Assembly (NCBI GenBank): GCA_003520455.1 | Contig: DOUV01000773.1 | Location: 1-14,976, forward strand | Length of the DNA stretch: 14,976 bases | Reading direction: 5' to 3' | Origin: Chloroflexota bacterium | GTDB lineage: Bacteria; Chloroflexota; Anaerolineae; Ardenticatenales; Ardenticatenaceae | Shown: piece by piece, positions 1-14,976 of the stretch | Numbering within the stretch: position 1 is the stretch's first letter | Layout of the letters: each line of letters starts with the position of its first letter | The notes under the pieces: model-generated | What the model was told of the DNA's origin: nothing | Databases searched by the model: none | The model's input: only the letters and a program-made list of their open reading frames with translations | Translations under genes and position numbers: made by a program

Positions 1-879
1 GGCCTGATCCAGGATACGGGTGATGGCCTGCGCCACCTCACCTCCCGTCGCGCCCGGCCGCAAGCGGCCTTCGGCCTGGGTCAGGGCGGCAGCACACAGA
101 TCAAACGCGCGTTGAATCTCGACGGAGGGGCGCCCCAGGGAAAAGACGCGGATAGTCTGCGTCCAGAAGCCCCCCGGCCCGGCCGGTTCGATCGAGAAAC
201 GCACGAGGTCGCCCGGCTGCAACGCCCGCGCCGCCGGCACAGCCGCGGGCGCTCGCGCCCCTGTGCTTCCGAGGAGAAAGAAATGCTCGGCTCCCTCGGA
301 GAAGAGCTCGGCTGCGGCGCGAGCAAACAGCGCGTTTTCGGGTGAATCTGTCTGAAGCGTCGCAGGTAGTGCCGACAGGGCGGCATCGGCCAGCACTACC
401 GATCGTCGCATCTGGTCAATCTCGTCCGATGTCTTCACCGCGCGCATCAGACGAAAGGGAGCGCTGACGGATACGAAACGCATTCCCGGCGGGGCACCCG
501 CGTCGTGGAGGTTGAGTGCGCCGGGCAAATCCTCAAATCCCGCGAGGCCAACCGTCACCTTCCCGGCTGCCATCTCCTTGATTGTCTCCAGGGCGCTGGC
601 CGCCAGATGAGGAACGGCTTTGATCGTGGTTGTCCAGGCGGTGGTCTCAGCCCAGTTCTTTTGAAACGATCCTGAGGGGACCAGCAGAACCGGATCGCCA
701 TCCGGCCCCAGCAGCGCCAGACTGACACCAAACACGGTGGCGTAACCGGTGAGGAAGCGCACGTTGCCCTGGCTCGCGATGGAATCGGTTGAGCCCACAA
801 CCAGGACGTCGAGCTGCTGTTCCGCCATAAAGCGGCGGGCCCGCGCGATTCGAGATGCTTTGGTTTGATCTGGTGCCAT
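1..879 (-). CDS. M24/creatinase-fold protein, divergent active site (partial, C-terminus off the left edge)
   Basis: An open frame of 293 codons runs from ATG at 879 to the left edge without a stop. It translates as an N-terminal creatinase domain (residues about 8-150, with NVRFLTGY at 39-46 and the linker MRAVKTSDEID at 145-155), followed by the start of the pita-bread M24 fold (about 155 on). The SD GGAGGTGA sits just upstream of the ATG. Xaa-Pro peptidases of this family hydrolyse Xaa-Pro bonds with two metals; creatinase and relatives use the fold without metals. Here the usual His of the P-H-A motif reads Ala212, the first Asp after GDLV reads Ser229 and the second Asp reads Gln241, so a non-metal or altered hydrolase is more likely than a true aminopeptidase. 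The later His and Glu ligands lie outside the window. It is downstream of, and co-oriented with, the two regulators. Family is secure; substrate is unknown. Confidence 0.87.
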   Translation of the reverse strand, partial: MAPDQTKASRIARARRFMAEQQLDVLVVGSTDSIASQGNVRFLTGYATVFGVSLALLGPDGDPVLLVPSGSFQKNWAETTAWTTTIKAVPHLAASALETIKEMAAGKVTVGLAGFEDLPGALNLHDAGAPPGMRFVSVSAPFRLMRAVKTSDEIDQMRRSVVLADAALSALPATLQTDSPENALFARAAAELFSEGAEHFFLLGSTGARAPAAVPAARALQPGDLVRFSIEPAGPGGFWTQTIRVFSLGRPSVEIQRAFDLCAAALTQAEGRLRPGATGGEVAQAITRILDQA

Positions 880-988
880 CCCGGGTCACCTCCGCGGACG
901 CTGTACGGACTCGCATGAGGAACAAGGTCGCTGAGGGCCATACGCCCACCAGCTTTCAAGCTGCCGCTTGATACCAGACCCTGGCGGC

Positions 989-1717
989 TCAGCCCGCGCG
1001 CGGTAGCGCGTCGCTCTCGTGCGGCAACTCTCCCCAGGCCTGGTCGAGATGGGCCTGCATCGCTGCCCGGGCCCCGGCGGCGTTGCCGGCTTTGATCTGC
1101 TCGAGAAGCAGGCGGTGAAACGTTTGGGCCCGCTCACCCGCCCCAGGATTCTGCACAAACCGCAGCCGGGCTTCTTGAAGAAGATCGATGACCGGGTAAA
1201 TCACGAGGAGGAACAGGTTGTTGCCTGTTGCATCGGCCAGAGTGGAGTGAAAGTCGAGATCGGCCTGGATGTATGCGGTCGGATCGTTCAGGGCCGCATC
1301 CATGCGCGCAACGGCTTCCTCGAGCTTCGCAATATGCTCGGGTCTGGCGTGCAGGGCAGCAAGTGCGGCAATCGGTGGCTCTACCGCCTCGCGCAACTGA
1401 TGAAGATGCCGAATGGACTGGTCACTACGCTCGGCCGAGATTTTGAGGGGGACCGCCAGGACATCGGCGGCGACTTCGGCGATAAAGGTGCCGATCCCCG
1501 GTTTCACGACAATGATTCCCCAGGCTTCCAGAAGTTTGAGAGCCTCGCGGAGCGCCGTCCGGCTGACTCCCAGTAACTCTCCAAGCTCATCCAGGGGTGG
1601 TAGCCGGCTGCCAACGCGAAGCTGGCGGCTGCTCACGAGGTCGAGAATCTGCCGCGCAATCTGATCGGGTAAATTCCTTCCGGTTCGCACCGGTGCGTAA
1701 ATCAACTCTTCTGCCAC
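989..1717 (-). CDS. GntR-family transcriptional regulator, FadR/FCD subfamily
   Basis: This 242-residue DNA-binding regulator has an N-terminal winged helix-turn-helix (residues about 16-79, including LGVSRTALREALKLLEAWG) and a C-terminal all-helical FCD ligand domain (about 100-228). The FCD metal site is visible as Asp153, His157, His201 and His223. FCD regulators usually bind small carboxylates such as sugar acids or lactate and repress neighbouring catabolic genes, which fits the sugar-acid dehydratases across the control region. I chose the GTG at 1717 because GGAG lies 8 bases upstream and the homologous region begins there; the frame stays open further upstream, but that extension runs into the iclR gene and lacks family character. 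The gap to iclR is 121 bases, and a TNGTNNNACNA site lies just upstream of the start, suggesting self-control. The ligand is not known. Confidence 0.93.
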   Translation of the reverse strand: MAEELIYAPVRTGRNLPDQIARQILDLVSSRQLRVGSRLPPLDELGELLGVSRTALREALKLLEAWGIIVVKPGIGTFIAEVAADVLAVPLKISAERSDQSIRHLHQLREAVEPPIAALAALHARPEHIAKLEEAVARMDAALNDPTAYIQADLDFHSTLADATGNNLFLLVIYPVIDLLQEARLRFVQNPGAGERAQTFHRLLLEQIKAGNAAGARAAMQAHLDQAWGELPHESDALPRAG

Positions 1718-1732
1718 GTGATTATCTCCGGA

Positions 1733-1743
1733 TAGTAATACAA
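1733..1743. promoter_or_regulatory. Candidate GntR/FCD operator upstream of the GntR gene
   Basis: TAGTAATACAA matches the FadR/FCD-type consensus TNGTNNNACNA at every fixed position. It ends 16 bases upstream of the GTG start of the GntR gene, close to its ribosome binding site, so a bound regulator could block its own expression. A second perfect match lies in the divergent control region at 2699-2709. The motif is short and degenerate, so the assignment is inference. Confidence 0.45.
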
Positions 1744-1838
1744 GTCGTAGGAGTGCAACGGAGGTAACAGTCCCTGCACGATGCCGAGCGCGAAAACTCC
1801 TTTCACAGGACGAAATCAGGAGCGGGCTCGCAGCCACG

Positions 1839-2621
1839 TCAACGCAAGTTGGCGTGGTTTGGGTGGTATCCCAGGCGCAGGGAGATTTCAGTCGCGGTCT
1901 GTTTGATGGCGTCTGCCATCTCTTGCTCCAGCGCCGGTCCGATTCGGCTGTCCGGCGCCGACAGGCTGACGGCGGCGACGACTCGCCCGCGCTGATCAAA
2001 AATAGGGGCGCCGATGCAACAAGCGCCCTCCTCGTTTTCGCCCCGATCCACCGAGAAGCCGCGCGCGCGTGTTTCGATGAGGTCACGTTTGAGTGCCTCC
2101 ATTGTGGTAAGCGTGCGCAAGGTCCGTGGGATCAACGTGGGCGGGAGGTGCGCTGCCCAGTGCTCCTCAGGGAGAAAAGCCAGAAGCGCCTTGCCCAGGG
2201 CAGTGGAATAGAGAGGGTCGCGGCCACCCAACGCCGCCAACATTCTTAACGAGTGCCGGCTCTCGACGATCTCCAGGTACACCACCTCGTGCCCGGCCAG
2301 AATCCCCAGATTGACCGTTTCGTTGAACCGATCGCGCAGCGCCTCCATATGAGAGACCGCAGCAGCACGAGTATCAATCTGTTCCCGAGTGGCCTGCCCT
2401 AATTCCCACAGGCGGAGACCGGGCTGGTAGAGGTCCCGTTCCGGATCGTGGGCGACAAGGCCGCAGACCTGGAGAGTGTAGAGATAGCGAAACACAGTTG
2501 TCTTGGGCAGGCCGACCCGCCGGCAGATCTCGCTCAGCCGGAGAGGCTGATCTGCCTCTGCCAGACAAAGAAGCACCTGAATTGCCTTGTAGACCGGCTT
2601 CACGGTGTAGTTGTTCGACAT
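1839..2621 (-). CDS. IclR-family transcriptional regulator
   Basis: A 260-residue protein with the standard IclR layout: an N-terminal winged helix-turn-helix (residues about 8-65, with LRLSEICRRVGLPKTTVFRYL) and a C-terminal GAF-like effector domain (about 80-250, with STALGKALLAFLP and RGFSVDRGENEEGACCIGAPI, the usual effector-pocket segments). IclR proteins repress or activate catabolic operons in response to small organic acids. The ATG at 2621 is preferred over the longer frame up to 2810: AGAAGG lies 9 bases upstream, the family alignment starts just after it, and the extension would cover the promoter region. It is the first gene of the leftward unit and is divergent from the catabolic operon, the classical position for its regulator. 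With the GntR gene behind it, two regulators of different families appear to guard one operon. Confidence 0.94.
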   Translation of the reverse strand: MSNNYTVKPVYKAIQVLLCLAEADQPLRLSEICRRVGLPKTTVFRYLYTLQVCGLVAHDPERDLYQPGLRLWELGQATREQIDTRAAAVSHMEALRDRFNETVNLGILAGHEVVYLEIVESRHSLRMLAALGGRDPLYSTALGKALLAFLPEEHWAAHLPPTLIPRTLRTLTTMEALKRDLIETRARGFSVDRGENEEGACCIGAPIFDQRGRVVAAVSLSAPDSRIGPALEQEMADAIKQTATEISLRLGYHPNHANLR

Positions 2622-2647
2622 TCCGGGAAACCTTCTGATACCCGATT

Positions 2648-2668
2648 TTGTTTCATCAAGCGAAACAA
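2648..2668. promoter_or_regulatory. Inverted repeat in the iclR leader, candidate IclR operator
   Basis: TTGTTTC at 2648-2654 and GAAACAA at 2662-2668 are perfect 7-base inverted arms around a 7-base spacer, 27-47 bases upstream of the iclR ATG. IclR-family proteins commonly bind palindromes upstream of their own gene. GTTTC/GAAAC half-sites occur in operators of some members such as KdgR, though there in the opposite orientation. Assignment to this IclR protein is inference from position. Confidence 0.4.
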
Positions 2669-2696
2669 GAGTCCCTTGACAAGAAACAGAAAGCCT

Positions 2697-2711
2697 TGTA
2701 GTGTGACTACA
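2697..2711. promoter_or_regulatory. Palindrome matching the GntR/FCD operator consensus
   Basis: TGTAGT at 2697-2702 and ACTACA at 2706-2711 are perfect arms around GTG. The inner 11 bases, TAGTGTGACTA, match the GntR/FCD consensus TNGTNNNACNA exactly and symmetrically. The site lies 30 bases before the -35 box of the rightward promoter and inside the leader of the leftward one. It is the stronger of the two such sites here and a likely target of the GntR-family gene at 989-1717. Confidence 0.55.
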
Positions 2712-2741
2712 TCCACCTCTTTCGTTGGCCAAGAGAGAGCG

Positions 2742-2770
2742 TTGACAGAACCGGGCAGTCGGCGTATACT
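2742..2770 (+). promoter_or_regulatory. Consensus sigma-70-type promoter for the rightward catabolic operon
   Basis: TTGACA at 2742-2747 is a perfect -35 box. A 17-base spacer leads to TATACT at 2765-2770, five of six matches to the -10 consensus. The predicted start is near 2777. It points toward the aminotransferase at 3380 and implies a leader of about 600 bases. Two 14-bp palindromes follow directly, so strong repression would be expected to hold this near-perfect promoter in check. Confidence 0.62.
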
Positions 2771-2784
2771 GGTAAGCAGAAGAG

Positions 2785-2812
2785 GTATGAAGTCTTACGT
2801 ATGAATTCATAC
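2785..2812. promoter_or_regulatory. Two abutting 14-bp palindromes, candidate tandem operator
   Basis: GTATGAATTCATAC at 2799-2812 is a perfect 14-base palindrome. GTATGAAGTCTTAC at 2785-2798 is the same word with two changes and touches it without a gap. The centres are 14 bases apart. The pair begins about 8 bases past the predicted rightward start and its right copy overlaps the -10 box of the leftward promoter, so one bound repressor could close both directions. The word differs from both the GntR-like and the IclR-like candidate sites nearby; which regulator binds it is unknown. Confidence 0.6.
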
Positions 2813-2838
2813 TACACTGGCCGACGGCCTTTTGTCAA
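2809..2838 (-). promoter_or_regulatory. Leftward promoter for iclR-gntR, facing the rightward promoter
   Basis: On the minus strand TTGACA lies at 2838-2833, an 18-base spacer follows, and TAGTAT at 2814-2809 is a four-of-six -10 box. The predicted start, near 2802, is to the right of the predicted rightward start near 2777, so the two transcripts would overlap for about 25 bases. The -10 box lies mainly within the right-hand 14-bp palindrome. The leader to the iclR start would be about 180 bases. Confidence 0.45.
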
Positions 2839-3379
2839 CTGCAACTCGAGAAGCAATACGCCGGACGTCCCGACGCCGGGAGGCCGGCGCCTCAATTACC
2901 TGTTGGGTCGTTGCCCGCATCGCATCCTCATCACTTGATTTGACAATCGGCCCATCGAACGTGGGGGCTGGAATACGCGCCAGTCCGGCGCCGGAGGCGC
3001 GTGGTTTCGGAGACTTCTGAACGCTTCCGGGACTTCCGAAGTCTGGCGCCTTGACCGGCGCTCTCGCATGCTCGTTCGTAACGATCGTCTGTTTTCAGGG
3101 CGTATCTCACTTTCTGTATAAGAGGTGCGTAAGCGCCATTTATACAGAAATATGAACACATCATCTCTGTTATTCCGGTTCCCCGTCGCCAGGGTCGATC
3201 GTTAGCCAGCCGGTTCGATCCTTCTGGCGGCTCATCGCAAGCCCCTTCAATGCGGTCCTTAGAAATCGTAGAGCGAGACAGTATCTCCCCGTCGAGACCT
3301 CTGTCACACTTGCCGCCGAAACCATCGTGAATCCATCCACCCCACTGGGGTGCTCACGCGCTTCTGAAAGGAGCCCGAA
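2839..3379 (+). other. Long non-coding leader of the rightward operon
   Basis: About 540 bases between the promoter cluster and the aminotransferase show no convincing gene on either strand; the short frames present are arginine- and serine-rich with no family character or good ribosome binding site. Visible structure includes the palindrome CCGGCGCCGG (2985-2994), a 13-base palindrome GACTTCCGAAGTC (3031-3043) whose right arm can alternatively pair with AGACTTC at 3011-3017, and the large hairpin at 3111-3150. The competing pairings could mean a regulated leader RNA or an undescribed small RNA; decayed mobile DNA is the alternative. Confidence 0.4.
3111..3150 (+). other. 40-base hairpin with GUAA tetraloop in the operon leader
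   Basis: TTTCTGTATAA (3111-3121) pairs perfectly with TTATACAGAAA (3140-3150). Inside this, a G-U pair (3122/3139) and one A-A mismatch (3123/3138) lead to a second helix, GGUGC (3124-3128) with GCGCC (3133-3137), closed by GUAA (3129-3132), a GNRA-type tetraloop. There is no U-run after it on either strand, so it does not look like an intrinsic terminator. It could be a leader-RNA element or the remnant of a small inverted-repeat element. Confidence 0.6.
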
Positions 3380-4792
3380 TTGTCGACAGCCGAGGCGCGC
3401 ACGCGAGTTGCCGCGCTCCAACAGGAAGCAGAGTGCTATCTTCCCGGGGGCGTCTCAGCTGGCGGGCGCTTTAACCCATCCCTGGGCCACTCGCTGTACC
3501 TCGCGCGTGCGGAGGGTGCCTGGATCTACGACCTCGACGGAAAAGCGTACATCGATTTCAACCTCTCCCACGGTGCCACATTTCTGGGACACAACCACCC
3601 GGCGATCCGGCAGGCCATCCAACGGGCGCTGGAGGTTGGCATCATCGCCGGATATGAAACCGAGGAGACCACCCGGCTTGCCCGGACCATCGTAGAGATC
3701 ATCCCCTGCGCCGAAATGGTGCGATTGGCCAACTCTGGGACGGAGGGGACAATGCTCGCGATCCGTCTGGCGCGCGCCTCCACCGGGAAGAAGAAGATTC
3801 TAAAGTTCTGGGGGCACTTTCACGGCTTGCACGACTACGTGATGTACAACGCCCATTCGCCTCTCGTCCCCCTGGCAGCGGGCGGCGCCGTGCCTCTCCA
3901 CCGCGAGTCGGCCGGGATCCCGGATGAGCTGGATTCACTCGTCGTTGTTGTTCCCTGGAGGGATGAGACGGCGCTTGAAGCAGTCCTTGCGGCCGAGGCG
4001 AACGAGATCGCGGCCATCATCATGGAGCCGATCAATTACAATTCCGGCTGCATCGTCGCCGACCGGCCTTACATGCAGTTCGTCCGAGATATTGCCGACA
4101 GGTACGGCATCGTGCTGATCTACGATGAGGTGCTGTCGGCGTTCCGAACCGGGGTGGCCTGCGCGCAGGGCTATTACGGCGTCACGCCCGACCTGTGCGT
4201 GATCAGCAAGGCTCTGGCGAATGGGATGCCGATTGCCGTGGTTGCCGGGCGGGCCGACCTGCTTCGCCAGGCGATGCCTGTTGGGAATGTCACCCACAGC
4301 GGCACCTATTGCGGGAATCTCCTCTCAGTGGTGGCGGCCAACGCCGTGCTGCACGAGATCCGGCAGGAAGGCTTTTATGACCGCATCGGCGCTGTGGCGG
4401 ATACGCTCTACCGAGAGTTGGCAGCCCTCTTCGAGCGCTACGGCATCCCGGCGCGGGTGCAAGGGCTCGGGGCGCGGTTCGGTCTCTTCTTCGGGTTCAC
4501 GGGCGAGGTCCAGACCTTCGCGGATACGTTGCAGCACGACGGCGCTCTGGCGGCAGAATTTTTGCAGGCCGCCGCGCGGCGCGGCGTCTATTTTCACAGC
4601 TACGGCAATCTGGCGACGGGACACCACGGCTTCTCCGCCGCCCATACTCCCGTGGTGATTGACGACGCATTGAATCGGATCGAGAGTGCGCTTGGTGACA
4701 TGCGGTCTGGTGTGGGCGCGGTGAGCTCGCCCTTCCCCAACTCGCCGCGTCAGAGGGCAATCGAAGAAGGAGGAAGTCAATGGCCTGAATGA
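3380..4792 (+). CDS. Class III aminotransferase, glutamate-1-semialdehyde 2,1-aminomutase-like
   Basis: A 470-residue PLP enzyme of fold type I. The cofactor phosphate site NSGTE is at 118-122, the ring-stacking region GHFHG at 145-149, the pyridine-nitrogen Asp at 249 (YDEVLSAFR), and the Schiff-base Lys at 277 (SKALANG). The opening YLPGGVSAGGRFNP is typical of the GSA-aminomutase branch. Members include HemL and many catabolic omega- or beta-aminotransferases; the setting in a catabolic operon without haem genes argues against HemL. The start is TTG at 3380, set by the strong SD GAAAGGAG six bases upstream. It is the first gene of the rightward unit, so amine removal or transfer is probably central to the pathway. 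The last 30 residues, rich in Ser, Pro and Arg, extend beyond the usual family end. The substrate cannot be read from sequence. Confidence 0.93.
   Translation: MSTAEARTRVAALQQEAECYLPGGVSAGGRFNPSLGHSLYLARAEGAWIYDLDGKAYIDFNLSHGATFLGHNHPAIRQAIQRALEVGIIAGYETEETTRLARTIVEIIPCAEMVRLANSGTEGTMLAIRLARASTGKKKILKFWGHFHGLHDYVMYNAHSPLVPLAAGGAVPLHRESAGIPDELDSLVVVVPWRDETALEAVLAAEANEIAAIIMEPINYNSGCIVADRPYMQFVRDIADRYGIVLIYDEVLSAFRTGVACAQGYYGVTPDLCVISKALANGMPIAVVAGRADLLRQAMPVGNVTHSGTYCGNLLSVVAANAVLHEIRQEGFYDRIGAVADTLYRELAALFERYGIPARVQGLGARFGLFFGFTGEVQTFADTLQHDGALAAEFLQAAARRGVYFHSYGNLATGHHGFSAAHTPVVIDDALNRIESALGDMRSGVGAVSSPFPNSPRQRAIEEGGSQWPE
4767..4788 (+). other. Strong ribosome binding site followed by a two-codon ORF
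   Basis: AAGGAGG at 4767-4773 stands six bases before ATG at 4780, an ideal initiation site, but the frame reads Met-Ala-stop. A second ATG four bases later reads Met-Thr-Gly-Val-stop. The element overlaps the last codons of the aminotransferase gene. It may be a minimal upstream ORF, or the remaining start region of a gene lost before the binding-protein gene. Confidence 0.4.
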
Positions 4793-4869
4793 CAGGGGTT
4801 TGATCTGGAGATTGAAGACGACTTCGAGCAGCCGTCCACTCTATCGGAACTGCCTAAAGGAGGATGAAG

Positions 4870-6558
4870 GTGGTGCAACGGCGAAACCTGCTGGCTATTA
4901 GTGTGCTCCTGCTTCTCACCGCGCTCTTGATCGTGGCCTGCAACACGGCTCAACCGCAAACGGTGGAGAAGGTTGTCGAACGGACGGTGGTCGTCGAGAA
5001 ACAGGTCACCGCGGTGGTCGAGAAAGAGGTCACGACCGTCGTCGAGAAAGAAGTCGCTGTTGTGGTCACGGCGACGCCGGAACCGACCGAGGCACCGCCG
5101 TCCGAGCCGGTGCCAGGTGGGACGCTGCGCGTCGGCATGATCCAAGATATCCCCGACTTTGACGCCTACAGCCGCAACTTCTTCTACTGGCCCATCGCCC
5201 GCAATATCTACGACACCCTGATTCGCTACGACCATTCTCTGAATCCCCAGCCGCAACTCGCCGAGTCGTGGGAGATTGCCGACGATGGCCTCTCGATCAC
5301 CCTGCACCTGCGCGAGGGCGTCAAGTTCCACGATGGCAGTGATTTCACCTCGGCAGCCGTTGCGGCGAACCTGGAACGCGCGACCGATGCGGCCCGGGGT
5401 GTGCACCAGTATAACGCCAACCGCAACGTCGAATCTTGGGAGACACCGGACGACTATACTGTCGTCATCAAGTACAGTAAGCCGACTCCCGCCGGCCTGA
5501 TGCTGGATGCATTGGATCAGTTACCGATCATCTCCCCGGAGACCCTCGACACGGAAACATTGAAAACCAAGGCCATCGGCACCGGCCCGTTCATGGTGGC
5601 CGAGAAAGTCCCCGGGGACCACGTCACGCTCAAGCGATTCGATGGCTACTGGAAAGAGGGGCTGCCCTATCTGGATGAGATCATCCTCAAGCCCTTCACC
5701 GATCCAGACGCGATGGTGCTTGCGCTTGAGGCCGGCACCCTCGACTTTATCCAGGACACCCCCTACAAGGACGTCAGGCGGTTGGAGAACAGTCTTGTCG
5801 TCAATCGCGGACAAGCAGGAGCGCTCTATTACAACCTCTACCTGAACGTCTACAAGGAGCCGTTTACCAACAAGCTGGTGCGTCAGGCGATCCAGTACGC
5901 CCTCGACCGGGAGACCATTGTGGGCCAGGCCCTCTTCGGCGTCGGCGAGGTGAAGTGGACCGCGTGGCCGGAGTACTCCGTCGCGTGGGATGACAAGTGG
6001 AAGAACTATTACCCGTATGACCTTGAGAAGGCCAAAGCATTGATCACTGAGGCAGGCTATCCCGACGGCTTCGAGACTGCCATCACTGTTCTCGCCGGCA
6101 ACCCGGACATGGTGGCCATTGCCGAGATCCTCCAGGCGGACCTGCTCACTATCGGCGTCAAGACCCAGATTCTCGTGCTGGATACGGGGACCTACTACGA
6201 CTGGCACCTCAGTGGAAATTACCCCGGCATCCACATCAGCTTTGGTGCCAATTCTAACAAGTACCCGGCCGCCCAGTTCACCGGGAGCCACTACCGGGTC
6301 GAGAACAACGTGCTCCTGAAGCCCGACGGGTTCTGGCCGGAAGCCTATGTCGAGAACGTCAAGCTGGGTGAAGAGACCCTTGACCCCGAGGAGCAGCATC
6401 AGGCCTACGTGGCCGCCACAGAGGCGATGCTCGACGAGTCCTGGGTCATCGAGTACTCCTGGAAATTCCTGGTCTTTACCCATCACCCCTATGTGCAGGG
6501 GTTCGACTACACCGTAGAAAGTATGCCACTGTTCGAAGCGGTCTGGCTCGCCAAGTAG
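4870..6558 (+). CDS. ABC transporter substrate-binding lipoprotein, family 5 (Dpp/Opp/nickel type)
   Basis: A membrane-anchored extracytoplasmic solute receptor of 562 residues. It has a lipoprotein signal with basic QRR, a leucine-rich core and lipobox IVAC (Cys24 with this start), then a repetitive VEK-V linker (about residues 32-66), then a complete SBP_bac_5 domain (PGGTLRVG near 78, FHDGSDFTSAAVAANLERA, TGPFMV, and VRQAIQYALDRETIV in the second lobe). Family members bind peptides, metals, opines or oligosaccharides and deliver them to DppB/DppC permeases, present downstream at 7823 and 8815. Start choice: AAAGGAGG abuts the ATG at 4864 with no spacing, whereas GTG at 4870 has six bases and GTG at 4873 nine, so a GTG is the better start. 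The ligand is unknown; a sugar-acid or amino conjugate is inferred from context. Confidence 0.95.
   Translation: MVQRRNLLAISVLLLLTALLIVACNTAQPQTVEKVVERTVVVEKQVTAVVEKEVTTVVEKEVAVVVTATPEPTEAPPSEPVPGGTLRVGMIQDIPDFDAYSRNFFYWPIARNIYDTLIRYDHSLNPQPQLAESWEIADDGLSITLHLREGVKFHDGSDFTSAAVAANLERATDAARGVHQYNANRNVESWETPDDYTVVIKYSKPTPAGLMLDALDQLPIISPETLDTETLKTKAIGTGPFMVAEKVPGDHVTLKRFDGYWKEGLPYLDEIILKPFTDPDAMVLALEAGTLDFIQDTPYKDVRRLENSLVVNRGQAGALYYNLYLNVYKEPFTNKLVRQAIQYALDRETIVGQALFGVGEVKWTAWPEYSVAWDDKWKNYYPYDLEKAKALITEAGYPDGFETAITVLAGNPDMVAIAEILQADLLTIGVKTQILVLDTGTYYDWHLSGNYPGIHISFGANSNKYPAAQFTGSHYRVENNVLLKPDGFWPEAYVENVKLGEETLDPEEQHQAYVAATEAMLDESWVIEYSWKFLVFTHHPYVQGFDYTVESMPLFEAVWLAK
4963..5067 (+). repeat. 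In-gene repeat encoding the VEK-V linker of the binding lipoprotein
   Basis: Four imperfect 8-10-codon units beginning VEK follow one another directly after the lipidated cysteine (VEKVVERTVV, VEKQVTAV, VEKEVTTV, VEKEVAVVV). The alternating Val and Glu/Lys pattern suggests an extended or coiled spacer that lifts the binding domain off the membrane. I know such linkers mainly from Chloroflexota lipoproteins, which is the main taxonomic clue here. Confidence 0.75.
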
Positions 6559-6634
6559 ACGCAACTCCAGGAGCCTGCGCGTCGGGGTGGCGCGGTGATA
6601 GCCACCCTGACGGCTCTGCTCAGGAACATCGGTC

Positions 6635-6681
6635 TTGCCGTCCGGTGGCCGGAGGTGAAGCCGCCGGCCACCGGACGGCAA
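6635..6681 (+). promoter_or_regulatory. Perfect 18-bp hairpin between binding-protein and dioxygenase genes
   Basis: Bases 6635-6652 and 6664-6681 are perfect 18-base inverted arms around an 11-base loop; the stem is mostly G and C. No U-run follows on either strand, so a classical intrinsic terminator is unlikely. Its place, just after the binding-protein gene, is where transporter operons often carry a hairpin that protects the upstream message or reduces read-through, so that receptor is made in excess over permease. The remainder of the 252-base gap holds a weak G/C stem at 6744-6759 and no gene. Confidence 0.65.
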
Positions 6682-6810
6682 ACAAGGACATCACGTGGGG
6701 AGCGGGGGGAGTCCTCGCACCCCCACGGCCAGGACGACTTGACCGCCCCCCTGGGGGCGCCGGATCATGGGCAAGTTCCGCCTCGTGGAGATGGAGAGAG
6801 GAGGATCCGA

Positions 6811-7785: not shown

Positions 7786-7822
7786 GGCGCCGAGACTGGA
7801 AGCGTGAGAGCAAGGTGACGCT

Positions 7823-8767: not shown

Positions 8768-8778
8768 AGATAGTTCGT

Positions 8779-8802
8779 GCGAGCAGTGCGATTGCGAGCA
8801 GT
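8779..8802 (+). repeat. 9-base direct repeat in the gap between the two permease genes
   Basis: GCGAGCAGT occurs at 8779-8787 and again at 8794-8802, a 15-base period, within the 47-base gap just before the ribosome binding site AAGGAT of the second permease. It may be chance or a small local duplication; no function is evident. Confidence 0.3.
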
Positions 8803-8814
8803 AAGGATCCGCCA

Positions 8815-9711
8815 ATGACCTCAATAACCGGCCGAGTGACTCCCTTTCCCAGCTACGCCGGCCTCCGCGAAAGTAGCCTGCTGCTGCGAACGGTTGCGCA
8901 GATCACCCGCAACCGGCTGGCGACGGCGTCCTTCGGCTTCGTGCTGCTGCTGGTTCTTGTGGCGCTCCTCGCCCCGGTGATAACACCCTACGACCCGCTC
9001 GCGCTCGATAAGAAGGCCAACCTCCAGGCGCCGTCGTTTGACCATCCACTCGGAACGGACCAGCGCGGCCGAGATATTTTCAGCCGGTTGATTTACGCCT
9101 CGCGTATCTCTCTCAGTGTCGGGATAGTTGCCGTGTTGCTCTCGACCGTCGTGGGGGTACCGGTTGGCCTGATGGCCGGCTACTTCCGTGGAACGACCGA
9201 TACGATTCTCATGCGGATTCTGGATGCGCTGCTGGCCTTTCCGCCCATTCTCCTTGCCATGGCAATCGTGACCATCATTGGGCCAGGCTCCACGAATGCA
9301 ATGGTCGCCGTGGCCGTGACGGGTATCCCGACCTTCGCGCGGCTGGCGCGCGCCAGCACGCTCTCGCAAGTCGAGCTCGACTACGTTACGGCGGCGCGCG
9401 CGATCGGCGCCGGCCCGTGGCGCATCATCTTCCGTTCGATCCTACCCAACGCGTTCGCGCCGGTCCTGGTCCAGATGTCGCTGGCTGTCGCCTACGCCAT
9501 CCTGCTGGAAGCCGCGCTCAGCTTCTTTGGCCTGGGGACGCAGCCGCCGACTCCGTCCTGGGGTGCAATGTTGAGCGAGGCGCGCGGCTACCTCCACCTT
9601 GCGCCGTGGTACGCGATTGCACCTGGTGTGATCATCACTCTGCTCGTTCTGGCCCTCAATACCTTCACCGACGGGCTGCGCGACGCGCTTGATCCCTCCC
9701 ACCAACATTGA
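8815..9711 (+). CDS. DppC/OppC-like ABC transporter permease
   Basis: A 298-residue inner-membrane permease, partner of the DppB-like subunit. It shows the N-terminal extension and first membrane segment typical of DppC (LATASFGFVLLLVLVALLAP near 40-60), the HPLGTDQRGRDIFSRLIYASRISL periplasmic motif, and the EAA loop DYVTAARAIGAGPWRIIFRSILPN (about 189-212), ending with DGLRDALDP, a usual family close. ATG at 8815 has AAGGAT upstream. Normal systems need one or two ATPases of the DppD/DppF type; neither is found downstream in this window, where enzymes begin after 16 bases. The ATPases may be beyond the right edge or shared with another system. Confidence 0.95.
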   Translation: MTSITGRVTPFPSYAGLRESSLLLRTVAQITRNRLATASFGFVLLLVLVALLAPVITPYDPLALDKKANLQAPSFDHPLGTDQRGRDIFSRLIYASRISLSVGIVAVLLSTVVGVPVGLMAGYFRGTTDTILMRILDALLAFPPILLAMAIVTIIGPGSTNAMVAVAVTGIPTFARLARASTLSQVELDYVTAARAIGAGPWRIIFRSILPNAFAPVLVQMSLAVAYAILLEAALSFFGLGTQPPTPSWGAMLSEARGYLHLAPWYAIAPGVIITLLVLALNTFTDGLRDALDPSHQH

Positions 9712-9727
9712 GGTTGTGACCAGGTTC

Positions 9728-10864
9728 ATGAAAATCTCGGGCATCAACGTTTTTACAGTTCAGGCCAGATGGCGCAACTGGGTCTTTGTTCAAGTAGAAA
9801 CCGACGAGGGCGTGACGGGCATTGGCGAGTCCACCCTCGAAGGCAAGGCCGCGACTGTTGAGGGCGCGATTCTTGACTTGAAGATGGACCTGCTCGGTGA
9901 GAATCCGCAGGACGTGGAGCGACTGTGGCAGAAAGTGTTCTACCACGCGGCGTGGCACGGCTCGGCGCTCTACTCCGCCTGGAGCGGCATCGAGATGGCC
10001 CTGTGGGACATCAAGGGGAAAGTGCTGGGGACCCCGGTCTACAATCTTCTGGGTGGGCGGTGTCGGGATACGGTTCGTCTGTACGCCAACCTCTGGTACG
10101 TGGGCGCCGAGACGCCGGACGAGTACGCGGAGAAAGCGCGCGCGATTGTGGGGCGCGGCTTCACGGCGCTCAAGTGGGAAGCTTTTGGTGCCGGCTATGC
10201 CGGGGTCGAGGCAGCGACGATCCGGCGAACGGTCGAGCGCGTGCGCGCCGTGCGGGACGTCGTCGGCGAAGACGTGGACATTATGATTGACGTCGGCGGC
10301 CGGTTTGTCCCTGAAGCGGCGATCAAGCTTGGCCGGGCTCTGGAACAGTTTGCGCCGTTCTGGTATGAAGAGCCGGTCCACTGGAGCGGAATGGATGCGC
10401 TGGCGAAAGTGGCTGGGAAAGTGAATGTGCCGATCGCGACCGGCGAGAAGCTCTTCACCAAGTTTGGCTTCAAGCAATTGTTGGAACGCCAGATCGCCGG
10501 CGTCATCCAGCCCGACCTCTGCCACGCCGGTGGCATTCTGGAGGTAAAGAAGATCGCCGCGATGGCCGAGGCGAACTACGTGATGGTGGCACCCCACAAT
10601 CCGAACGGCCCGGTCTCGACGGCGGCCTGCCTGCAACTGGCTGCCTGTGTCCCCAATTTCCTGATCCTCGAGTATCACGTGGACGACGTCGCCTGGCGGG
10701 ATGAGATCGTGACCCCTGCCGAGCAGGTCGAGGACGGCCACCTGGCAATTCCCACCGCCCCGGGCCTGGGCATCGAATTCAACGCCGAAGCGGCCGCCGC
10801 TCATCCCTACGAACCTGTTCGGCTCGGCGACATCTTCCCGGGCCTCTCCCCCTTCTGTCTCTGA
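9728..10864 (+). CDS. Enolase-superfamily (MR/MLE) enzyme, D-galactonate-dehydratase-like
   Basis: A 378-residue sugar-acid dehydratase or epimerase candidate with capping domain (1-120) and TIM barrel (130-350). Metal ligands are Asp188 (MIDVGG), the Glu pair 214-215 (YEEP) and Glu240 (TGEK); the His-Asp dyad is His290 (APHNPNGP) with Asp263 (QPDLCHAGG). These abstract the proton next to the carboxylate. By recalled comparison with E. coli DgoD, the second catalytic His (DFHG) is Gly190 here, so true galactonate dehydratase activity is doubtful. ATG at 9728 begins the family-typical MKI; its ribosome binding site is weak, consistent with coupling to the permease gene that ends 16 bases before. 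It is the first of three successive sugar-acid dehydratase-type genes. Confidence 0.9.
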   Translation: MKISGINVFTVQARWRNWVFVQVETDEGVTGIGESTLEGKAATVEGAILDLKMDLLGENPQDVERLWQKVFYHAAWHGSALYSAWSGIEMALWDIKGKVLGTPVYNLLGGRCRDTVRLYANLWYVGAETPDEYAEKARAIVGRGFTALKWEAFGAGYAGVEAATIRRTVERVRAVRDVVGEDVDIMIDVGGRFVPEAAIKLGRALEQFAPFWYEEPVHWSGMDALAKVAGKVNVPIATGEKLFTKFGFKQLLERQIAGVIQPDLCHAGGILEVKKIAAMAEANYVMVAPHNPNGPVSTAACLQLAACVPNFLILEYHVDDVAWRDEIVTPAEQVEDGHLAIPTAPGLGIEFNAEAAAAHPYEPVRLGDIFPGLSPFCL

Positions 10865-10893
10865 TGCACGACGAAGAAGGAAGGAGGTCCTCA

Positions 10894-11892
10894 GTGAAAC
10901 TTCCGATGCGGCTCGGCTTGGGCCAATTCAGCGACATCACCGGCGAGCGGCTGACCTTCATCCGCCAACTCGGTGTCGTCGACGTACTGCTGAACACCCC
11001 CACCCTGCCCGGTGAAACCTATTGGGAGTACGAGGATCTGCTCGGCCTGCGAACGCGCATTGAGGACGCCGGGCTCCGGCTGGCCGCGATCGAGAATGTC
11101 CCGCTGTCGTTCTACGACAAGGCGATGTTGGGCCTGCCCGGCCGCGACGAGCAGATCCGGCACATGATGACTACGATCCGCAACCTGGGCCGGGCCGGCA
11201 TCCCGATCCTTGGCTACCATTGGATGCCGAACGGCGTCTGGCGGACGGGGGTGAGTTCGACCGGGCCGGGAGGCGCCCGCGTCTCCAGTTTCGATCTCGA
11301 AGCGGCCCGCAGCGCGCCGCTGACCCACGGTCGTGAGTTTGCTCTTGAAGAGATGTGGGATGCCTACGCGTATTTCATGAGTGCGGTTCTCGGCGCGGCC
11401 CAGGAAGCGGGCGTCAGGTTGGCGCTGCATCCCGACGATCCGCCGGTCGAATCCCTCGGCGGTATCCCCCGCCTGTTTCGGAACTTCGCCGGCTTCCAAC
11501 GGGCGATGGAATTGGCCGACAGTCCCATGCACGGCCTGGATTTCTGCGTGGGGTCCTGGTCGGCGATGGAAACCGACGTGCTTGGTGCGCTCCGCTCCTT
11601 TGGCGAGCGCGGGAAGATCGTCTACGTGCATTTCCGCGACGTTCAGGGGGTCGTGCCACGATTCCAGGAATGCTTCCTCAATCAGGGCAACTGCGACATG
11701 CTGGCCGTCATGAGGACGCTGAAAGAGGTCGGATTCAGCGGCTTCGTGATCCCAGACCACGTGCCCTATCTGATCGAAGACAGACCGTGGAGAGATCAGG
11801 ACGGCACTTCGAACGCCGGGGGATACCTTGGACGGGCGCACGCGATCGGGTACATGAGCGCCCTGCTCGATGTCGTCAATTCGCTCGATTGA
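10894..11892 (+). CDS. UxuA-like mannonate dehydratase (xylose-isomerase-like TIM barrel)
   Basis: A 332-residue enzyme resembling UxuA, which dehydrates D-mannonate to 2-keto-3-deoxygluconate using a divalent metal. Conserved pieces are LALHPDDPP (His179), VYVHFRDVQG (His246), DHVP (Asp288, His289) and a C-terminal GRAHAIGYMSALL. It is shorter than E. coli UxuA (394 residues), mainly at the ends and in loops, as in other short UxuA-like proteins. An ATG at 10864 overlaps the previous stop, but AAGGAGGT stands five bases before GTG at 10894, so the GTG is the better start. Placed between two enolase-superfamily dehydratases, it suggests that hexonate or uronate-derived acids pass through this pathway. 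True mannonate specificity is likely but unproven. Confidence 0.9.
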   Translation: MKLPMRLGLGQFSDITGERLTFIRQLGVVDVLLNTPTLPGETYWEYEDLLGLRTRIEDAGLRLAAIENVPLSFYDKAMLGLPGRDEQIRHMMTTIRNLGRAGIPILGYHWMPNGVWRTGVSSTGPGGARVSSFDLEAARSAPLTHGREFALEEMWDAYAYFMSAVLGAAQEAGVRLALHPDDPPVESLGGIPRLFRNFAGFQRAMELADSPMHGLDFCVGSWSAMETDVLGALRSFGERGKIVYVHFRDVQGVVPRFQECFLNQGNCDMLAVMRTLKEVGFSGFVIPDHVPYLIEDRPWRDQDGTSNAGGYLGRAHAIGYMSALLDVVNSLD

Positions 11893-11914
11893 TATTTTGA
11901 CAAGGAGAAGCTGG

Positions 11915-13123
11915 ATGAAGATCGTCGACGTCAAAGCAACACCCGTGTACGTGGAAATGGAGGCACCCCTCCTGTGGAGTATGGGGGTCGAGCCGGGAAC
12001 GACACGAACGGTGATTCAACTCTACACCGACGACGGCATCGTCGGAATCGGCGAGACCTATGGCGGCGCGTCCACGGCCCGGCGGATCGAGGAATCGCGT
12101 CCCTTCTTTATCGGCATGGATCCGTTTGAGATTCAAACGGTGATTCAGCGGTTTGAGGTCTTCCGAATGACCTCGGAACAGATGGCCCGTGCCGCCGAGA
12201 TGAAGTATGTGGGCGCCGGCATCGAGATGGCCATCTGGGATATCATCGGGAAGGCGTTGAACAAGCCGCTCTATAAACTGTGGGGTGGCGCCGGCGATAC
12301 CTTCGTTCCCTTTGTGGCCTACGTCTTCTATCGCTACGAGAAGAACGGCATCGGCGGCGAGTCGACCGCGCAGGACATCGCGCGCCGCTATGGTGAGCTG
12401 GTCGAGAAGTACGGTTTTGATGGCGTGAAGCTGAAAGGCGGTGTCTTCCCGCCCGACGAGGAACTGGCGGCGGTGAAGGCCCTGCGTGAGACGTTCGGCG
12501 ATCAGATCAAGTTCCTGCGCTTCGATCCTAACCAGGCCTGGACCGTCGAGACGTCGGTCCGCTCCATTAACAAGATGGAGCAGTACGACCTCGAATACGT
12601 CGAAGACCCGACCTGGGATATTCAGGGCATGGCCCTGGTCCGCGAGGACGTGCGCGTGCCCCTCGCCACCAACCAGGCCGTCATCAGCTTCCCGCAAATT
12701 GCGCCCGCGGTGCGGATGCGCGCCATTGACGTGCTGATGGTTGACCTCTACTTCTGGGGCGGCGTTTCTCAGGCCAAGAAGGTGGCGGCGATCTGCGAGA
12801 CGTTCAACATCGGCTTGGCGATGCATAGCGACCGCGAACTCGGCATCGGCACGGCGGCGGGGCTGCATTTCTGGGCGTCGACCCCCACCATCTCCCATTA
12901 CTACGACTCGCACTATCACGACCAGGTGGGCGACGTCATCACCGAGCCGTTCGTCTTTCGTGACGGCGGCCTGCGGGTGCCCGAGGGACCGGGGTTGGGG
13001 GTCGAACTGGACGAGGAGCGCTTGAAATACCACCACCGCCTGTACGAGGAGCGCGGCGACGACGTCGAGTTCTTCGACCCGGTCCGCCGGCCCGGGTGGA
13101 CGCCGCACCTGCCGCTCTGGTGA
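11915..13123 (+). CDS. Enolase-superfamily sugar-acid dehydratase, glucarate-dehydratase-like
   Basis: A 402-residue dehydratase of the glucarate-dehydratase branch. The catalytic set known from E. coli GudD is present: the KxK pair Lys172/Lys174 (VKLKGG), metal ligands Asp204 (DPNQAW), Glu230 (VEDP) and Asn253 (ATNQ), and the Asp277/His304 dyad (VDLYFWGG, AMHSDRE). The use of Asn as third ligand is the signature that separates this branch from mandelate racemase. Glucarate dehydratase yields 5-keto-4-deoxyglucarate. ATG at 11915 follows AAGGAGAAG and begins the usual MKI. It differs from the neighbour at 9728 in ligands and base residues, so the two are not recent duplicates and probably act on different diastereomers or different steps. 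Substrate may be an aldarate other than glucarate. Confidence 0.93.
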   Translation: MKIVDVKATPVYVEMEAPLLWSMGVEPGTTRTVIQLYTDDGIVGIGETYGGASTARRIEESRPFFIGMDPFEIQTVIQRFEVFRMTSEQMARAAEMKYVGAGIEMAIWDIIGKALNKPLYKLWGGAGDTFVPFVAYVFYRYEKNGIGGESTAQDIARRYGELVEKYGFDGVKLKGGVFPPDEELAAVKALRETFGDQIKFLRFDPNQAWTVETSVRSINKMEQYDLEYVEDPTWDIQGMALVREDVRVPLATNQAVISFPQIAPAVRMRAIDVLMVDLYFWGGVSQAKKVAAICETFNIGLAMHSDRELGIGTAAGLHFWASTPTISHYYDSHYHDQVGDVITEPFVFRDGGLRVPEGPGLGVELDEERLKYHHRLYEERGDDVEFFDPVRRPGWTPHLPLW

Positions 13124-13178
13124 TCCTGCCTCGATCGGTCCCCGGCGCAACGACCGAGACGAAACGGAATGTGCGAGA

Positions 13179-14036
13179 ATGAAGCAACTCACGACGTTGG
13201 CGCGCCCCTTCATCGTCTGTGTCCTCACCGATCGGACGGTGGATGCGGCGATTGCCACGATGCGGCTGGCGCTGTACGAGGGCGCTGACGCCTACGAGGT
13301 GAACCTGCCGGCGCTCGGCGCGGCCGGTGCCCAGGCCCTTCGGCGTCTCTTCAGCGCGGTCGACCGCCCGATCTATACGAGCTGCCGGCGGGCCGGCTTT
13401 ATGACCGTCTACGGATTCGAACGGCGCGAGCTGCCGGCCTGGAGCGATGAAGAGCGCATGCAGCAGCAACTCGATGCGTTGTCGCTCGGCTCGGTCGCCA
13501 TTGATATGGAGATGGATACCTTCGATCCGCATCCGGCGCCGCCGCTCGGCACACCGGACGCGGAGGGATGTGGCCGCGCGACCGGCGAGCCGGCGGAACT
13601 GACCCGCGATCCGGCCGCACTCGAGCGGCAACGGGCCATCATCGCTGATGCTCACGCGGCCGGTGGGGAGGTGATTCTCTCCTGCCATACCGGCCGGCCG
13701 CAGAGCCGGGATGGCCTGATGCGTATCGCCGGCCTGGCGGCAGAGCGTGGCGCCGATCTGGTCAAAATCGTCTCGCCCTGCCCGCGGCTGGAGGATCTCC
13801 TGGCGCTCATCGAGGCCACGGCGCGTCTCGCAGAGCGCCTCCCTCTTCCCTTTATCCTGGTTGGCGCCGGGGAGAATGGGACCCTGAGCCGCACAATCGG
13901 GATGGCCCTCGGCTCGGCGTGGGCGCTGGGGCAGCAGACGTTGACGCCGGGCGGCTTCCACCCCCAGCCGCTGGTCGCCCATCTGCGCGAGATTCGGCGC
14001 CTGGTGCCGTGGCGCTACCACGCCGAGGCCGGGTGA
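13179..14036 (+). CDS. Type I 3-dehydroquinate-dehydratase-like Schiff-base TIM barrel
   Basis: A 285-residue class I aldolase-fold protein. Features of type I dehydroquinase are present: Asp109/Glu111 (IDMEMD), catalytic His170 (SCHTGRP), Schiff-base Lys196 (ADLVKIVS) and Arg238 with the distinctive ending GENGTLSRTIGMALGS. It is longer than AroD (about 250), with an insertion around residues 115-145, and the early substrate-binding E-x-R is E-V-N here. AroD dehydrates 3-dehydroquinate through a lysine imine. In this operon of sugar-acid dehydratases, without other shikimate genes, a catabolic role on a dehydroquinate-like or keto-deoxy acid is more likely. ATG at 13179 has only a weak GGA upstream. 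The gap to the MlrC gene is 10 bases, implying co-translation. Fold secure, reaction inferred. Confidence 0.82.
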   Translation: MKQLTTLARPFIVCVLTDRTVDAAIATMRLALYEGADAYEVNLPALGAAGAQALRRLFSAVDRPIYTSCRRAGFMTVYGFERRELPAWSDEERMQQQLDALSLGSVAIDMEMDTFDPHPAPPLGTPDAEGCGRATGEPAELTRDPAALERQRAIIADAHAAGGEVILSCHTGRPQSRDGLMRIAGLAAERGADLVKIVSPCPRLEDLLALIEATARLAERLPLPFILVGAGENGTLSRTIGMALGSAWALGQQTLTPGGFHPQPLVAHLREIRRLVPWRYHAEAG

Positions 14037-14046
14037 GGAGGGCACC

Positions 14047-14976
14047 GTGCGTGTCGTGATCGGAGAGTTCAAGCAGGAAAGCAACACGTTCGCCACCGTT
14101 CCAACCACCCTGCAACATTTCCGGGACTTTCACCTGTGGTACGGCGAGAGCATGACCGCCAATCTGAAGGACACCAACTCGGAGGTCGCCGGTTTCATCG
14201 ACGTCTGCGCTGAGATGGGCTACACCCTGCTGCCCACGCTGGCGGCCTTTGCCGTCTCCGGCGCCCCGGTCACCACCGAGACCTACGAGACGCTGCGCGA
14301 CGAGTTGCTCGCCCGCTTGTCCGCGGCGCGGCCCTTCGACGCGGTTCTCCTCGCCCTCCACGGAGCGATGGTCGCGGCGCACGAAGCTGACCCCGACGGC
14401 GCGACGCTCGAGGCGGTGCGCTCCCTGATCGGCCCGGACGTCCCGCTCGTCGTGACGATGGACCTGCACGCCAATCTCACCCGCCGCTGCGTCGAGCAGG
14501 CCGATGCCATCGTGGGCTTCAAGACCTGCCCGCACGTTGACCAGCGCGAGACCGGCCGGCGCGCGGCACGCATCCTTTCGCGCTGGTTGCGTGGCGAGGT
14601 GCGGCCGGCGAAGGCGTTCGTCAAGGTGCCGATGGTGACGCCCGCGTCCACGCAGATCCATTCCCAGGAGGGGCCGTTCAAGCGGTTGATGGATGCGACG
14701 GTTGCGATGGAGGCCGCGGGCGCCCTCTCGGCCAGCGTCTTCAGCGTGCAGCCCTGGCTGGATATCCCAGAGATGGGCTACGCGACCGTCGCCGTCACTG
14801 ACAACGATCCGGAATTGGCTGGCCATCTTGCCTGCCGCCTCGCCAATCAGGCCTGGGCTGAGCGCCACGTGCTCATGGACGTCGACCTCGTGCCCGTGGA
14901 CGAGGCCGTCCGACGGGCCCTGGCGCACCCAACGGGGCCGGTCGTCCTGAGCGATCTGGCCGACGGCACCGGCGCC
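14047..14976 (+). CDS. MlrC/M81-family metallopeptidase-like protein (partial, C-terminus off the right edge)
   Basis: An open frame from GTG at 14047 gives 310 residues up to the window edge; the family is usually about 490-510 residues, so roughly 60 percent is seen. Family motifs are FKQESNTF (8-15), LHGAMV (104-109), TMDLHAN (137-143, Asp139 and His141 as likely metal ligands) and KTCPHVD (159-165, His163). MlrC of microcystin degraders cleaves the linear tetrapeptide product; most homologues are uncharacterised amidohydrolases beside transporters and catabolic genes. GAGGAGGG lies a few bases before the GTG, and the previous gene ends 10 bases upstream. With the peptide-type importer and the M24-like gene, it points to an amide or peptide-like bond in the substrate. 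Confidence 0.92.
   Translation, partial: MRVVIGEFKQESNTFATVPTTLQHFRDFHLWYGESMTANLKDTNSEVAGFIDVCAEMGYTLLPTLAAFAVSGAPVTTETYETLRDELLARLSAARPFDAVLLALHGAMVAAHEADPDGATLEAVRSLIGPDVPLVVTMDLHANLTRRCVEQADAIVGFKTCPHVDQRETGRRAARILSRWLRGEVRPAKAFVKVPMVTPASTQIHSQEGPFKRLMDATVAMEAAGALSASVFSVQPWLDIPEMGYATVAVTDNDPELAGHLACRLANQAWAERHVLMDVDLVPVDEAVRRALAHPTGPVVLSDLADGTGA

Follow-up and report, generated by a model that had tools for sequence, protein, structure and literature searches.

We analysed a 14,976-nt stretch of DNA from a Chloroflexota bacterium of the family Ardenticatenaceae (contig DOUV01000773.1), hereafter termed the window, in which an M81/MlrC-family gene and a class III aminotransferase gene share one strand with a peptide-type importer and several enzymes of sugar-acid type. 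Pfam and NCBIfam searches together with the list of open reading frames revealed 13 genes, three on the minus strand and ten on the plus strand:

1–879, minus: M24 (creatinase/prolidase fold) protein, cut by the window edge (PF01321 and PF00557)
989–1780, minus: GntR-family regulator with FCD domain, start approximate (PF00392 and PF07729)
1839–2621, minus: IclR-family regulator (Pfam/NCBIfam; ATG at 2621 checked)
3380–4792, plus: class III aminotransferase resembling glutamate-1-semialdehyde aminomutase (GSAM-like; PF00202)
4864–6558, plus: family-5 solute-binding lipoprotein (SBP5) of a peptide-type importer (PF00496)
6811–7785, plus: PhyH Fe/2-oxoglutarate oxygenase (PF05721)
7823–8767, plus: DppB-type permease (Pfam/NCBIfam)
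8815–9711, plus: DppC-type permease (Pfam/NCBIfam)
9728–10864, plus: mandelate racemase (MR)-type enolase, galactonate-dehydratase-like (GalD-like), without His185 of DgoD (Pfam/NCBIfam, alignment)
10864–11892, plus: short UxuA-like protein of the mannonate dehydratase family (PF03786, alignment)
11915–13123, plus: GlucD-like MR-type enolase (Pfam/NCBIfam, alignment)
13179–14036, plus: type I dehydroquinase-like (AroD-like) Schiff-base barrel (Pfam/NCBIfam, alignment, AlphaFold/Foldseek)
14047–14976, plus: M81/MlrC-family metallo-amidohydrolase, N-terminal catalytic part, cut by the window edge (PF07364, alignment to 7ylq)

The ten plus-strand genes overlap or are separated by gaps of at most 253 bp (starts checked), a layout consistent with a single transcription unit as judged from the sequence. 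No kinase and no classical or 2-keto-3-deoxy-6-phosphogluconate (KDPG)-type aldolase was found among the window genes, and a scan of the window for RNA families and tRNAs found none, so that such elements were rejected. A preliminary description of the window had proposed that this combination of genes forms an undescribed pathway. The gene families it listed, including the two regulators (GntR/FCD and IclR), were confirmed by Pfam and NCBIfam, whereas alignments did not bear out the metal ligands of the M24 protein, the His185 of DgoD in the first enolase or the identity of the barrel protein as AroD.

The aminotransferase had been described as being of the glutamate-1-semialdehyde type. Its class III family and its pyridoxal phosphate lysine hold, with Lys277 aligning to Lys265 of E. 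coli HemL, while its score stays below the HemL cut-off TIGR00713 (358.5 vs. 527.3 bits). The M81 protein, described as amidohydrolase-like, is indeed a member of such a family: in an alignment to PDB 7ylq, all four zinc ligands given for MlrC in PMC9982164 (E39, D167, H169 and H191, with H196 printed once) are identical. Against the microcystinase MlrC model NF041767 it scores 144.4 bits at a cut-off of 999, with the N-terminal part alone present in the window.

Comparison with further Chloroflexota genomes, i.e., the phylum of G001, a Thermomicrobiales metagenome-assembled genome (MAG), showed that these two genes are linked. Samples of 320 genomes for MlrC and 317 for the aminotransferase were drawn separately from the phylum, and up to seven and five candidates per genome, respectively, were scored. 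Among the closest 30 relatives of the aminotransferase (40–53% identity), MlrC lies within 3 kb in 14; among the 120 further matches listed, it does so in 1, this single case being a fusion (Fisher 1e-10, kinship ignored). If only MlrC-holding genomes are considered, the comparison becomes 14/30 against 1/34 among the matches listed (Fisher 4e-5, kinship again ignored). MlrC is present in all 30 genomes of the closest relatives, compared to 65 of 320 overall (E ≤ 1e-30). In an aminotransferase tree of 31 rows, the link requires at least six changes, the tree not telling gain from loss. Three MlrC-linked rows form a group with the window protein (support 91/88), and the enclosing clade of 15 rows (support 97/94) contains eight linked ones, the window counted. 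Thus, the link between M81/MlrC and the aminotransferase is real.

Moreover, M81 and the aminotransferase form single open frames in four genomes (L292–L295), with lengths of 1015, 977, 974 and 1044 amino acids. Pfam detects M81, MlrC_C and Aminotran_3 in the three fusions tested; the fourth, which contains masked bases, was recognized by BLAST only. A protein search with a fusion as query, scoring the 7,991 candidates that share most words with it, yielded 19 matches, of which 12 (P0068–P0079) have all three domains at 61–100% identity, the query entry included. These 12 sequences represent a wider fusion family in environmental protein collections. A further sequence, P0081, joins M81 to a class IV aminotransferase on its N-terminal side; it is a single sequence with an odd linker and may be a read-through of neighbours. 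Among the papers listed in literature searches on MlrC and M81, also in Chloroflexi, no title or abstract opening mentions an M81-aminotransferase fusion or operon, subscription papers lying mostly outside the search.

Most of the pairs were viewed with 1.5-kb flanks, and their company varies. The order in L296 is a Lar_N protein, the aminotransferase, MlrC, SBP5, DppB, a second MlrC and a short-chain dehydrogenase/reductase (SDR). L268 shows SBP5, aminotransferase and MlrC, the MlrC match spanning two frames, and L269 has an IclR gene between aminotransferase and MlrC. In L233 and L270, both from genome G196, the aminotransferase is followed by a creatininase, an Amidohydro_3 protein and MlrC. 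A DUF4147/MOFRL (glycerate-kinase-type) gene lies near the pair in L265 and L266 (Pfam on L265 only), and no importer was seen beside the pair in L297 and L298. MlrC also occurs in L242 (1–2964) and L246 (952–3913), adjoining an AAT-type acyltransferase (Pfam on L242 only) and a beta-keto acid cleavage enzyme. These two loci hold no close aminotransferase, and their gene company hints at beta-amino/beta-keto acid chemistry around M81. MlrC adjoins enolase-type genes in L002, L243 and L244 and has one within about 10 kb in L003, so that the case of dehydratases and amidohydrolases never travelling together, named in the preliminary description as speaking against a joint pathway, was not observed.

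Outside the phylum, plasmids of Sinorhizobium fredii and Halorussus carry M81 together with ATP-binding cassette (ABC) importers, in S. fredii named as dipeptide-type, and with genes for M20 proteins or amidases, whereas in Microvirga M81 is found with an ornithine cyclodeaminase and a flavin adenine dinucleotide (FAD) oxidoreductase; no aminotransferase is annotated beside M81 in these three stretches. Conversely, relatives of the aminotransferase occur near an RspA-type enolase, a gluconokinase and a sugar importer in Arthrobacter, with hydantoinase A and B genes, a class IV aminotransferase and an SDR in Rhizobium, and with ABC importer, SDR and transketolase genes in Phaeobacter, no M81 being annotated in any of the three.

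Taken together, we cautiously favour, as probable though without great confidence, a regulated catabolic operon whose conserved heart is the pair of amide hydrolase and aminotransferase, served by a peptide-type importer. A small compound with an amide or peptide linkage would enter through the SBP5/DppBC importer and have its amide hydrolysed by the zinc M81 enzyme (MlrC-type); from the product, the GSAM-like aminotransferase would then form an oxo acid by removing or moving the amino group. We infer this order of steps from family knowledge and the fusion. The enzymes for polyhydroxy acids (GlucD-like, GalD-like, UxuA-like, PhyH and AroD-like) would have been added locally in the window host and may act on the same molecule as the pair; the AroD-like lysine (Schiff-base) enzyme may dehydrate or cleave an intermediate of the 2-oxo-3-deoxy type. 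The IclR and GntR regulators would control the operon. The earlier suggestion of a substrate with an amide and an amine part gains support here, since many relatives have M81/MlrC next to, or fused with, an aminotransferase of this clade, and a few pairs also have a peptide importer or further amide hydrolases alongside.

To judge how far the remaining genes belong to this operon, 85 neighbourhoods anchored on PhyH (59), GlucD-like (20) or AroD-like genes (6) were searched with the 13 window proteins (tblastn, E ≤ 1e-9), next to 40 control stretches from match-bearing contigs. The neighbourhoods spanned 4 to 21 kb around top-ranked matches only, PhyH sometimes giving more than one per genome; the tally leaves out L003, which nearly duplicates L002, as well as the Clostridia loci L006–L011, in which no other window gene was found. 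Several results weigh against the operon as we read it. The whole gene set was present in none of the neighbourhoods examined, and the three anchors never met (0/59, 0/20 and 0/6). PhyH was accompanied by peptide-importer genes in 7/59 cases vs. 2/40 controls, and by a GalD-like enolase in 10/59 vs. 6/40, no clear enrichment. Furthermore, MlrC is missing from the 3 kb around 16 of the 30 close relatives of the aminotransferase, and seven of the 15 rows in the window's own clade are without the link; few of the pairs were viewed with long flanks; the enolase adjoining the permeases lacks, by alignment, the catalytic histidine of DgoD; and amide hydrolysis is assigned by family because we know of no function for M81 enzymes other than MlrC.

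Among the other combinations, importer genes accompanied GlucD-like genes in 2/20 neighbourhoods, MlrC accompanied AroD-like genes in 2/6 vs. 1/40 controls, and a UxuA-like gene appeared in 1/59 PhyH loci and in none of the other neighbourhoods. M24 was found in none at the tblastn threshold; Pfam finds it near the GlucD-like gene of L107 and near the aminotransferase of L298. The claim that the combination as such is a conserved pathway was therefore rejected, as the set is not repeated in 85 anchored neighbourhoods and no two of the anchors meet. Because the anchored neighbourhoods never repeat the set, the window amounts to a single arrangement of parts that are exchangeable.

These results lend weight to a serious rival, which we consider a real possibility but would not expect to prevail: the window may be a patchwork scavenging island, whose co-transcribed genes serve several unrelated substrates, with a peptide/amide branch and at least one sugar-acid branch. 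Such an island would be expected of Chloroflexota lineages in which enolase and oxygenase paralogs have multiplied. Apart from the free recombination of parts across the 85 neighbourhoods, it is favoured by the expansion of enolase paralogs described for SAR202 in PMC6946804. PhyH relatives, too, are found in 60 of 400 genomes of the phylum (E ≤ 1e-20), many of them with several copies. Against the patchwork stand the tight packing with two regulators, the recurrence of AroD-like genes near enolases and MlrC, and the Arthrobacter relative of the aminotransferase near an RspA-type enolase.

E. coli DgoD, UxuA and GudD served as yardsticks for the three dehydratase-type enzymes. The first enolase exceeds the NCBIfam cut-off for galactonate dehydratase (NF010624, 342.7 vs. 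311 bits) and keeps the equivalents of DgoD Asp183, Glu209, Glu235, Asp258 and His285, i.e., the metal ligands and the His285-Asp258 pair. It has Gly191 in place of the catalytic His185, and a plain galactonate dehydratase was rejected for this reason. The UxuA-like protein lies below its NCBIfam cut-offs (NF003027, 158.6 vs. 191 bits; TIGR00695, 106.7 vs. 199.55 bits) and is 342 amino acids long, compared to 394 in E. coli UxuA. The GlucD-like enolase, at 148.8 bits against the glucarate dehydratase cut-off of 828.7 (TIGR03247), keeps the KxK motif (K172 and K174), the ligand positions D204, E230 and N253 and the D277-H304 dyad, and differs at two further positions (E266 of GudD to I and N341 to D). 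Hence, of the three sugar-acid dehydratases previously listed, the families stand, while the GalD-like enzyme lacks His185 and the other two fall below their cut-offs.

A peptide-type importer feeding sugar-acid dehydration is supported, in another lineage, by L108, which holds the second-best GlucD-like relative. Nearby lie SBP5, DppB and DppC, a PfkB kinase, a KDPG-type aldolase and an Ldh_2 dehydrogenase; the stretch (1281–10929) also encodes a ureidoglycolate-lyase-type protein and a D-glutamate-cyclase-like protein, with a second such protein at 13406–14446. L108 thus appears to be another amide plus sugar-acid cluster. The sugar-acid part of the substrate once proposed consequently receives weaker support than its amide and amine part: the GlucD-like residues are kept and L108 combines kinase, aldolase and importer, while the whole combination is not repeated.

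One might instead regard the window as an ordinary aldonate, uronate or aldarate operon taking up oligosaccharides or sugar acids, with M81 and the aminotransferase as side activities. Three dehydratase-type genes, an IclR regulator resembling KdgR, a GntR regulator, the catalytic residues kept in the GlucD-like enzyme and the sugar-type ABC binding protein that accompanies the GlucD-like gene in L107 all fit this explanation. We nevertheless hold it to be improbable, given that the window encodes neither a kinase nor a classical aldolase, that the GalD-like enzyme is devoid of its catalytic histidine, and that the link conserved in relatives is the one between M81 and the aminotransferase.

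The importer, predicted earlier to be of the peptide type, is confirmed in its binding lipoprotein and its DppB and DppC permeases; no ATPase subunit is found among the window genes, and it may lie beyond the window ends. The best PDB sequence matches of the lipoprotein are YliB (190.7 bits), the glutathione receptor GsiB, and AgaA (6hlx; 180 bits), which binds the opine agropinic acid. Other family-5 proteins (peptide, heme, dipeptide and nickel) reach at most 148 bits. Catabolism of an opine- or Amadori-like conjugate, in which the receptor would take up a sugar-amino-acid conjugate, finds an argument in the AgaA score and is the most improbable of the explanations, as YliB scores higher and these scores do not tell the ligand, a literature search on AgaA and agropinic acid turned up nothing relevant, and to our knowledge none of the 13 window genes belongs to an opine-specific family.

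The AroD-like protein shares 100% identity with a database record of an Ardenticatenaceae bacterium MAG and has 67 database relatives with identities down to 45%, whose source names, where given, are forms of dehydroquinase or 'hypothetical protein'. Its AlphaFold model (predicted local distance difference test, pLDDT, of 93.5) superposes in Foldseek on type I dehydroquinases of the PDB with a template modelling (TM) score of about 0.7 at 14–22% identity. All 19 aligned members share Lys196, His170, Arg238, Glu40, Glu111 and a Cys-Arg-Arg motif without variation, and K196, H170 and R238 match the active-site residues Lys170, His143 and Arg213 of AroD. Arg48 of AroD is replaced by Asn (N42), the EGG motif with Glu86, for which eight shorter AroD-type proteins of the same phylum served as comparison, is absent, and an insert is added. 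The two alignments disagree on AroD Arg82 and Ser232, and both place Gln236 opposite Gln263, across gaps. With an NCBIfam score for AroD of 46.4 bits at a cut-off of 139.3, and with Arg48 and EGG/Glu86 missing, a plain AroD was rejected. The lysine-dependent barrel predicted earlier is thus confirmed in its Lys, His and Arg and not as AroD proper; since the EGG-type motif is missing and Asn stands at Arg48, the protein is best seen as a Schiff-base enzyme of the dehydroquinase fold that forms a separate family with another substrate. Because the AroD motifs are missing, the public name 'type I 3-dehydroquinate dehydratase' is probably a misannotation of this family.

The AroD-like family is rare, with members in 7 of 400 genomes of the phylum (E < 1e-40) and, within the class of G001, in 1 of 158 (E ≤ 1e-25), so that a class-wide spread was rejected; the other 23 matches in the phylum (E ≤ 0.001) are both weak and partial, and the ones aligned resemble AroD proper. 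Among eleven GTDB loci, three have MlrC within 10 kb (L001, L002 and L003) and three a GalD-like enolase (L002, L003 and L004). L001, from Thermomicrobiales, carries on a single strand, in this order, the aminotransferase, the AroD-like gene, a DyP peroxidase and MlrC. Of three haloarchaeal plasmids with matches, two were inspected. The plasmid of Halobellus limi (L299, 6338–12639) shows an enolase annotated as dgoD, two MaoC genes and then two AroD-like genes with an SDR between them. Both of these AroD-like genes are labelled type I 3-dehydroquinate dehydratase, probably wrongly. The AroD-like gene of Natrinema is accompanied by genes for an amidase, a D-aminoacylase and a dipeptide epimerase. 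A distant homolog in Mesorhizobium (28%) is flanked by a gene of the fumarylacetoacetate hydrolase family and one for D-lactate dehydrogenase, no MlrC or enolase being annotated in that stretch. Rumen and gut Clostridia (L006, L007 and L009) contain a distant branch at 26–31% identity, which keeps Lys, His and Arg and has Gln at the position of Glu111, invariant in the Chloroflexota family.

Two further enzymes of the window differ in the state of their active sites. In M24 peptidases, two Asp residues act as metal ligands. The M24 protein of the window has Gln in place of the second in all three alignments (PDB 5cdl, E. coli PepQ and the M24 protein of L107) and, in place of the first, Ser against 5cdl and L107 or Glu against PepQ; these two positions were scored, the remaining ligands lying beyond the window edge. 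At least one and probably both of the visible Asp ligands therefore appear to be lost, and a working metallopeptidase was rejected; the earlier view of this protein as amidohydrolase-like is not supported. In PhyH, the HxD...H iron triad and an arginine (H186, D188, H272 and R283, numbered by the 353-amino-acid reading from 6724) are invariant in 60 of 60 aligned rows.

The intergenic region of about 760 bp between the IclR and aminotransferase genes contains the following elements:

2697–2711: inverted repeat TGTAGT-GTG-ACTACA, putative operator-like (sequence scan)
2742–2770, plus, and 2838–2809, minus: divergent promoter-like sites (11/12 and 10/12) that flank a palindrome
2785–2812: inverted-repeat stretch with a 14-bp palindrome at 2799–2812, between the divergent promoter-like sites
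3111–3150: 18-nt hairpin in the long leader

The repeat at 2697–2711 resembles GntR operators. The four promoter-like sites of the region, compared to a shuffled mean of 2.7, are near chance, as is the result of a promoter and terminator scan. The nearest NCBIfam models of the IclR regulator are BhcR and KdgR, both below cut-off.

In a wider form, our proposal would describe a new catabolic route in Chloroflexota: amide-linked amino compounds, such as amides of beta-amino acids, would be opened by an M81 hydrolase together with a GSAM-like aminotransferase, the two at times forming one bifunctional protein, and hosts of the window type would consume conjugated sugar-amine acids by adding dehydratases for sugar acids and a new Schiff-base lyase with the dehydroquinase fold. 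We offer this wider form tentatively and consider it unlikely to hold in full, and the single glycosyl-peptide or nucleoside-antibiotic-like substrate suggested before is speculative. All parts belong to known families. M81 is common in the phylum, as the 65 of 320 genomes show, and MlrC is the sole member whose activity is known to us. From its proximity to, and fusion with, one clade of aminotransferases, a concrete and testable order of reactions follows for the family. At the same time, the cluster warns against reading a pathway from a single neighbourhood, most parts being exchangeable.

The cluster can be compared with four known systems. The expansion of MR-type enolases in Chloroflexota is already published: in PMC6946804, SAR202 group I members have 4 to 75 enolase paralogs each, and 52.9% of the SAR202 enolase annotations are D-galactonate dehydratase, an annotation shared with the window. 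That paper covers paralog families, and the words phytanoyl, peptidase and neighborhood are absent from the text available. Type I AroD shares its fold and its active-site Lys, His and Arg with the AroD-like protein, which differs by its insert, its invariant CRR motif and its low identity. The dgo, uxu and gud operons employ the same superfamilies, and the GlucD-like enzyme of the window has kept their catalytic residues; the window, in contrast, has a peptide-type importer, no kinase or KDPG-type aldolase, no His185 in its GalD-like enzyme, and GlucD-like and UxuA-like proteins below the cut-offs.

The fourth system is the microcystin mlr pathway of Sphingopyxis and Sphingomonas, which employs an M81 zinc enzyme with the same four ligands. 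Adda, a constituent of microcystin, is a beta-amino acid. In Sphingopyxis YF1, an aminotransferase and a beta oxidase are reported to turn Adda into phenylacetic acid (PMC10819031). Microcystin degradation proper was rejected, as none of the 13 genes belongs to an MlrA- or MlrB-like family; the window also differs in its ABC importer, in an M81 protein of 144 bits against the MlrC cut-off of 999, seen in its N-terminal part alone, and in an aminotransferase that adjoins or is fused to M81 in relatives. By analogy, the window host may use a beta-amino acid, and the best reading of the module is that it would work like the segment of microcystin breakdown in which MlrC is followed by an aminotransferase.

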